NCBI GenBank assembly: GCA_963693315.1
Contig: OY856186.1
Span: forward strand, 71,480,128 to 71,544,127
Length of the DNA: 64,000 nucleotides
Reading direction: 5' to 3'
Origin: Diogma glabrata
Taxonomy: Eukaryota > Arthropoda > Insecta > Diptera > Cylindrotomidae
In this document: positions 9,360 through 9,584 of the stretch, one piece after another
Position numbering within the stretch: position 1 is the first letter of the stretch
How the letters are laid out: each line of letters begins with the position of its first letter
The notes under the pieces: generated by a model
Database searches by the model: none
What the model was told of the DNA's origin: nothing
What the model saw: the letters and a program-made list of their open reading frames with translations, nothing else
Position numbers and translations under genes: made by a program

Positions 9360-9584
9360 TTAACCAACCCTTATTAATTTATTAAAAACTTTTTCTCTAT
9401 GAGGTTTTTTTAGAACTGCAGAGATAATAGGTTCAATATTTTTTATTCGTCTATGAAATCTATCTCGATCTCGTGCATATTCTTCATATTTTCCCTGTCG
9501 AGCTACTCTATATGCATAATCCCACACATACATAACGTAAAGATCTAATTTATTGTTAAAGGTAACTTTTTTTGTTTTTAACAT
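9360..9584 (-). CDS. PPP1R15/GADD34-like PP1-binding small protein
   Basis: A 74-residue protein. Seen in the sequence: a KVTF motif at residues 6-9, fitting the RVxF docking motif for protein phosphatase 1, then VW at 20-21, and at 28-47 an arginine-rich segment containing ARQG and ARDRDRFHRRI. This order and spacing are characteristic of the conserved C-terminal core of PPP1R15 (GADD34/CReP), where the first motif holds PP1 and the second helps direct it to phospho-eIF2-alpha. Known DNA-virus proteins (herpesvirus ICP34.5, African swine fever virus DP71L) use the same module to reverse the host translation block. The ORF has little beyond this core. Its ATG overlaps the stop of the upstream gene (TAATG), so the two may share a transcript. 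Capture from a host PPP1R15 gene is an inference. Activity is untested. Confidence 0.8.
   Translation of the reverse strand: MLKTKKVTFNNKLDLYVMYVWDYAYRVARQGKYEEYARDRDRFHRRIKNIEPIISAVLKKPHREKVFNKLIRVG

Follow-up and report, generated by a model that had tools for sequence, protein, structure and literature searches.

The locus described here raises the question of what a PPP1R15-type protein is doing inside a Polinton. The window, by which we mean the whole 64,000-nucleotide stretch that was analysed (Diogma glabrata, contig OY856186.1, positions 71,480,128 to 71,544,127 of the forward strand), contains a Polinton 12,145 bp long, and the first gene inside its left terminal inverted repeat (TIR) is an open reading frame (ORF) of 74 codons that a sequence-only reading had proposed to encode a GADD34/PPP1R15-like adaptor of protein phosphatase 1 (PP1). 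We conclude that this ORF is a PPP1R15 (GADD34/CReP) core that was captured, trimmed, and taken along by the Polinton as an accessory gene.

The assignment is carried by the family match and by the residues within it. Residues 3–70 match the Pfam family PF10488 (PP1c_bdg) with an E value of 8.8e-10 and a score of 39.1 bits, 13 bits above the curated cut-off of 26.1, and the match reaches the last of the profile's 230 positions; the proposal that the protein is the PPP1R15 core and little else is therefore right. The translation also bears out the two motifs that had been pointed to, an RVxF-type KVTF at residues 6–9 and the eIF2alpha-targeting pattern as ARQG (28–31) and ARDRDRFHRRI (37–47), and the ORF does lie within an element bounded by TIRs and a 6-bp target-site duplication (TSD). 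When the single sequence was compared with PDB chains using phmmer, the best matches were PPP1R15B (4v0u_E, 1.8e-7) and PPP1R15A (7nzm_C, 4.8e-7; 4xpn, 1.9e-5), with the viral protein DP71L (9nb9_B) matched at 2.2e-5 and the first unrelated chain, ETV6, at 0.061. An AlphaFold2 monomer model of the core, built from an alignment of seven sequences, is of low confidence (predicted local distance difference test score 56.5) and has predicted helices at residues 14–30, 34–37, 40–57, and 60–72. The protein has no match in PHROGs or, by tblastn, in phages, and a viral contig collection yielded none for the 74-residue gene, the ATPase, the capsid candidate, the two-lineage alignment, the ATPase alignment, or three alignments of short relatives.

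A search for relatives with the single protein returned one (P0001, 77 residues, 58%), and two profile searches returned overlapping sets of 40 and 67; many of the 40 resemble vertebrate PPP1R15A/B, and two of them bear that name. The 67 include a cluster of 70–75-residue proteins from JGI/ENA data that start with MVKKVTF or near variants (P0014, P0041–P0044, P0046, P0049–P0051, and P0053–P0056) and that, from their sequences, look like stand-alone cores. A profile combining the two Polinton lineages described below with P0001 and P0014 matches PPP1R15A at 5.2e-13, PPP1R15B at 2.4e-11, and DP71L at 5.5e-9. Short PPP1R15-core proteins from metagenomes form another two groups, each with several diverged members (P0085, P0087, P0088, P0091, P0093, P0094, P0097, and P0099–P0102 taken together).

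The 74-residue protein aligns without gaps to PPP1R15A, and the roles of individual residues can be transferred from passages of PMC8500838 and PMC5429092. The PP1-binding residues V556 and F558 of the RVxF motif and R578 correspond to V7, F9, and R29; the actin contacts F592, R595, and R612 to F43, R46, and R63; and the eIF2alpha contacts R587, R591, and R594 to R38, R42, and R45, such that all nine contact or RVxF residues are identical to those of PPP1R15A. The three arginines that contact eIF2alpha are retained in both Polinton lineages. In addition, ISAVL at residues 54–58 aligns with LSAVL of DP71L, a segment that DP71L requires according to the portion of PMC5346070 consulted.

Copies of the gene are abundant in the 1.33-Gb genome. 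All 150 scored copies of the window's own lineage (lineage 1; the best 150 of 362 candidates) match residues 1–74 at 97–100% identity and contain no stop, a sample in which broken copies are under-counted because only the best-scoring candidates were scored; a scan with the PF10488 family likewise gave 150 of 150 scored places above the cut-off (the best 150 of 316 candidates). The 202-residue gene directly upstream ends in a TAA stop that overlaps the ATG of the PPP1R15 core as TAATG, and every one of the 43 lineage-1 stretches compared, which represent 38 distinct places and include copies with frame shifts, has this junction. Because this layout suits a stop-restart mechanism, we infer that the core is probably translated from the message of the 202-residue gene by stopping and restarting at TAATG.

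A divergent version of the core, 64–67% identical to the window's protein and matching PF10488 at 3.8e-9 (37.0 bits), is present at seven places that define lineage 2. Its frames are 77 residues long and open at three places (L041, L043, and L044) and 75 residues long at L045, matched likewise by L046 and L047, and these last three, about 36 kb apart, are probably one duplicated block. At L041 and L043 the core stands beside an ATPase 47–49% identical to that of the window (Pox_A32, 8.1e-9), a homologue of the window's 180-residue gene is near the core at all seven places (weakly in L048), and polB remnants are near it at L041 and L045–L047. No complete lineage-2 element with a PPP1R15 core was seen among the seven places, which look like deletion derivatives. 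At each of the five places examined (L041, L043, L044, L045, and L048) a short C-terminal relic of the 202-residue gene lies directly upstream of the lineage-2 ATG on the same strand. The relic is recognizable as NNSFKCAVK against NNHFRCAVK, with tblastn E values between 0.003 and 0.031 when the library consisted of five stretches of 800 bases, and by blastn as a 29-base match of 90% (E=2.7e-6) in L044, L045, and L048, with no blastn match in L041 or L043. Because the relic adjoins the lineage-2 core, the pairing of the 202-residue and PPP1R15 genes seems to be older than the split of the lineages, with the remaining lineage-2 gene order rearranged. Both a profile match well above the cut-off and conserved homologues in sibling Polintons, on which the sequence-only reading had made its claim depend, are thus in evidence, the homologues in two lineages and with the 202-residue gene or what remains of it alongside.

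Comparison of the two lineages reveals purifying selection on the PPP1R15 core after they separated. Across 64 aligned codons there are 52 base differences in 192, and 42 of the 64 residues are kept. Synonymous divergence (dS) is about 1.1 and nonsynonymous divergence (dN) 0.22, giving a dN/dS of 0.20 with a bootstrap range of 0.05–0.43 and no value of 1 or above in 5000. Neutral simulations made to avoid stops (n=3000) kept a mean of 31.1 residues and a maximum of 39; it is both this excess of retention over every neutral simulation and the dN/dS ratio from which we conclude that selection acted after the split. Without constraint, 92% of simulations gained a stop. A tree constructed without DP71L groups lineages 1 and 2 with support of 93/83, just under the tool's 95/80 mark, although it draws on 81 columns and many of its forks are weak. 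Given this grouping, the shared tyrosine at position 33 (Y33), and the 202-residue relic, we favour a single captured gene, either passed down or exchanged between Polintons.

Judged from its sequence, the 74-residue protein probably brings PP1 to phosphorylated eIF2alpha (eIF2alpha-P) and keeps translation on while the element is expressed. Host PP1 would be bound through KVTF and R29, and globular actin (G-actin) through F43, R46, and R63; R38, R42, and R45 would be presented to the N-terminal domain of eIF2alpha, allowing PP1 to remove the Ser51 phosphate. The eIF2alpha kinases of insects are GCN2 and PERK, and the translation block imposed by such kinases would be undone during expression of the element's own genes.

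Several observations weigh against this interpretation. In both Polinton lineages Y33, on which the sequence-only reading did not remark, occupies the position of human W582, a residue that is conserved throughout PPP1R15 according to passages of PMC5429092. Among 102 short relatives, the position was readable by pattern in 99, of which 98 have W and one (P0040) has R; the remaining three have W on visual inspection. In human PPP1R15A the W582A substitution abolishes dephosphorylation of eIF2alpha-P with PP1 and actin binding retained (PMC5429092, in part), and a C-terminal fragment of R15A of about 50 residues binds PP1 without raising activity towards eIF2alpha (PMC7615683, in part). With tyrosine in place of W582 the role as an eIF2alpha countermeasure is less certain, and the protein is for this reason classed as a PPP1R15-core homologue rather than as an eIF2alpha phosphatase adaptor of proven function. 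Not all copies are intact either. One of the seven lineage-2 copies (L048) is broken by an in-frame stop, and nine of the 43 lineage-1 stretches, or eight of the 38 places, which were partly picked because they looked different, have a single-base shift close to the start that leaves the ATG and the core in different frames. Young lineage-1 copies, taken from 28 loci at 25 distinct places that were selected in part for being variable, differ by ten nonsynonymous and two synonymous changes, a pattern that is expected of drift after insertion and gives no sign of constraint. As to the start-shifted copies themselves (L030–L034, L039, L040, L042, and L049), most share one and the same shift, and this suggests that the broken version has itself been copied.

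It is because of Y33 that two other roles for the protein have to be taken as serious rivals. In one, the protein is a decoy that binds PP1 and G-actin without selecting eIF2alpha-P, and either competes with the host PPP1R15, so that the stress response is prolonged and not ended, or sequesters PP1. The W582A mutant of human PPP1R15A, in which selectivity is lost and both bindings are kept (PMC5429092, in part), behaves much as such a decoy would, and the tyrosine at a position that is tryptophan in 98 of 99 relatives points the same way. However, the exchange of W for Y is of one aromatic residue for another, and neither lineage has lost R38, R42, or R45, for which a pure decoy would have no use, so that we regard a decoy as unlikely. 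The same change at a substrate-selecting residue could instead reflect a retargeted adaptor that steers PP1 to a different phosphoprotein, such as one encoded by the element or an antiviral factor of the host, but no other substrate motif was recognised and the residues that touch eIF2alpha are kept, and we consider this the more improbable of the two. We return below to the eIF2alpha-directed adaptor as the preferred reading.

The remaining explanations deny the ORF a function in the element. That it arose by chance is rejected by the PF10488 match, the 150 of 150 scored full-length copies, and the between-lineage dN/dS of 0.20. It might be a passenger, a piece of captured host sequence that travels with the element but serves no function today. 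The absence of constraint on recent copies, some of them frame-shifted, is in keeping with this, as is the apparent scarcity of the gene beside lineage-2-type ATPases: inspected by eye, two of 150 ATPase places (the best 150 of 617) have a lineage-2 PPP1R15 place (the best 150 of 316) within 15 kb, and many Polintons in the genome may do without a PPP1R15 gene. The dN/dS of 0.20 nevertheless contradicts passenger status for the past, and the ORF has stayed open across differences at more than a quarter of its aligned bases, where unconstrained sequences mostly gained a stop; we think a passenger very unlikely. That the ORF is a host PPP1R15 exon of the usual kind that happens to fall within or beside the element, or an assembly error, is rejected as next to impossible: nothing spoke in favour of it, the element-borne gene has at least 150 copies, and a separate PPP1R15 exon is found elsewhere in the genome.

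That exon was located with the DNA pattern for W-E-x-x-A-R-D-R-x-R-F, which has exactly one match in the genome (L052) and none for the reversed control. The frame opens with VRFN after an acceptor-like TTTATTAG and continues to a stop, and from its sequence we take it to be the last exon of the host PPP1R15, away from the element. It is identical to the window's protein at 32 of 64 positions and to lineage 2 at 31–34 of 64. The exon has W at the W582 position but D at the R594 position, an eIF2alpha contact at which the Polinton versions keep R.

Polintons (Mavericks) are recognised by TIRs that begin with AG and by a 6-bp TSD. The element has both, with AGTAGAG ends and a perfect TAATTT on either side, and it encodes a retrovirus-like integrase and an A32/IVa2-type ATPase, which Polintons also have. 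The polB gene is broken in the window's copy, and PolB, which in Polintons is protein-primed, is recognised through a sibling copy with an open frame of 1192 residues (DNA_pol_B_2, 6.5e-46). Of two further Polinton marks, the double jelly-roll capsid protein and the adenovirus-type protease, the element has putative versions, with no Pfam family above the cut-off for the 433-residue protein and a Peptidase_C5 match that falls short of its own. The features of the element are collected in the table.

Features of the Polinton, with positions in the window
Feature	Position	Strand	Evidence or remark
Target-site duplication TAATTT, left	8821..8826	.	
Left terminal inverted repeat, start AGTAGAG	8827..9306	+	
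PPP1R15-core gene, 74 residues	9360..9584	-	ORF; PF10488 match
202-residue gene directly upstream of the PPP1R15 core	9584..10192	-	No Pfam family above cut-off
Packaging ATPase (Adeno_IVa2/A32 type)	10181..10855	+	Adeno_IVa2 21.4 bits (cut-off 21); Pox_A32 20.2 (cut-off 22.8)
Putative major capsid protein, 433 residues	13257..14558	+	Inferred from size and position; no Pfam family above cut-off
Putative adenovirus-type protease	14928..15443	+	Peptidase_C5 E=0.006, 16.7 bits, under cut-off 21.3
Integrase, rve and chromo-like end	16604..17524	+	rve 3.7e-20; Chromo 24.0 bits against 25.1
polB remains	17805..18904	-	About 2.8 kb missing internally compared with a sibling copy
Right terminal inverted repeat	20492..20971	-	
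Target-site duplication TAATTT, right	20972..20977	.	

Other genes of these elements deserve mention. At 16010–16474 on the minus strand of the window is a proline-rich, acidic protein of 154 residues built of a repeated unit (FIPPPPSPPQL ... EEEEEEEWQDGQNWFD), with a shorter match in L040 and L050, as if one unit were absent; we take it to be reminiscent of actin-regulator or late-domain motifs. In lineage 2, L041 (7396–7584, plus strand), L043, and L045 encode a 62-residue protein with a CHHC zinc finger like that of U11-48K/GTSF1 (zf-U11-48K, 7.5e-7 in L041). GTSF1 proteins serve the Piwi-interacting RNA (piRNA) pathway, so a further gene for interaction with the host may have been captured here. 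A 192-residue ORF at 6257–6835 (plus strand) of L045, partly present in L048, has no Pfam family above the cut-off. Palindromic Polinton derivatives are also present: several of the lineage-2-type ATPase copies stand in inverted pairs separated by about 10 kb, and in L048 one set of inverted arms is nested within another (2471–3404 with 8324–9312, and 3835–4733 with 7048–7904). The lineage-2 ATPases fall into identity classes of about 91%, 78%, 72%, and 56% (the best 150 of 617 candidates), and the genome holds many Polintons of several lineages. Elsewhere in the window, an endonuclease ORF of a non-LTR (long terminal repeat) retrotransposon (1977–3653, minus strand; Exo_endo_phos_2, 7.5e-13) adjoins a long TA microsatellite (3651–3907).

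At stake is whether Polintons are mere transposons or have kept a viral way of life. A gene that was kept by selection, and that most plausibly acts on the host's switch for shutting down translation, argues for an infection-like phase with heavy protein synthesis under stress. It is conceivable, and we put it forward tentatively, that animal Polintons are a virus lineage armed against the integrated stress response, with a captured PPP1R15 core that is selected across lineages and in which the change from W to Y at the substrate-selecting residue gives a phosphatase output unlike that of the host and of other viral versions. If true, this would make the 74-residue protein the first eIF2alpha-phosphatase hijacker to be described from a Polinton, and would indirectly indicate that Polintons still reach a virus-level protein output in stressed cells; the hijacking of PPP1R15 would then extend beyond the large DNA viruses that are known for it. 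Y33 would also be a small natural variant that bears on the three-part mechanism of PP1, PPP1R15, and actin.

No PPP1R15 gene in a Polinton was found among the matches listed from the open-licence literature, which does not prove its absence, and a term look-up in PMC11071308 and PMC8363768 found 'phosphatase' in neither. Hijacking of PPP1R15 is known from viruses, and what appears to be new is its carriage by a Polinton, with selection in two lineages and an altered key residue. As an element, the Polinton described here shares with other Polintons/Mavericks and with adintoviruses the TIRs, 6-bp TSD, integrase, ATPase, PolB (in the sibling), and the protease-like and capsid-size genes. With the PPP1R15 proteins of animals (PPP1R15A/GADD34, PPP1R15B/CReP, and the single PPP1R15 of insects) its accessory gene shares a core of about 65 residues containing the RVxF motif, the arginine motif, and the actin and eIF2alpha contacts, but it lacks the long N-terminal part, is encoded in one uninterrupted frame, and has Y in place of W582. 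Among viral proteins, ICP34.5 of herpes simplex virus is larger and has other functions. It likewise has a GADD34-like core, as set out in a passage of PMC8500838. DP71L of African swine fever virus is, at 71 residues, likewise a stand-alone core in a DNA virus; 44 of the 74 residues align with it in a single-sequence comparison, although the tryptophan is changed in the Polinton protein.
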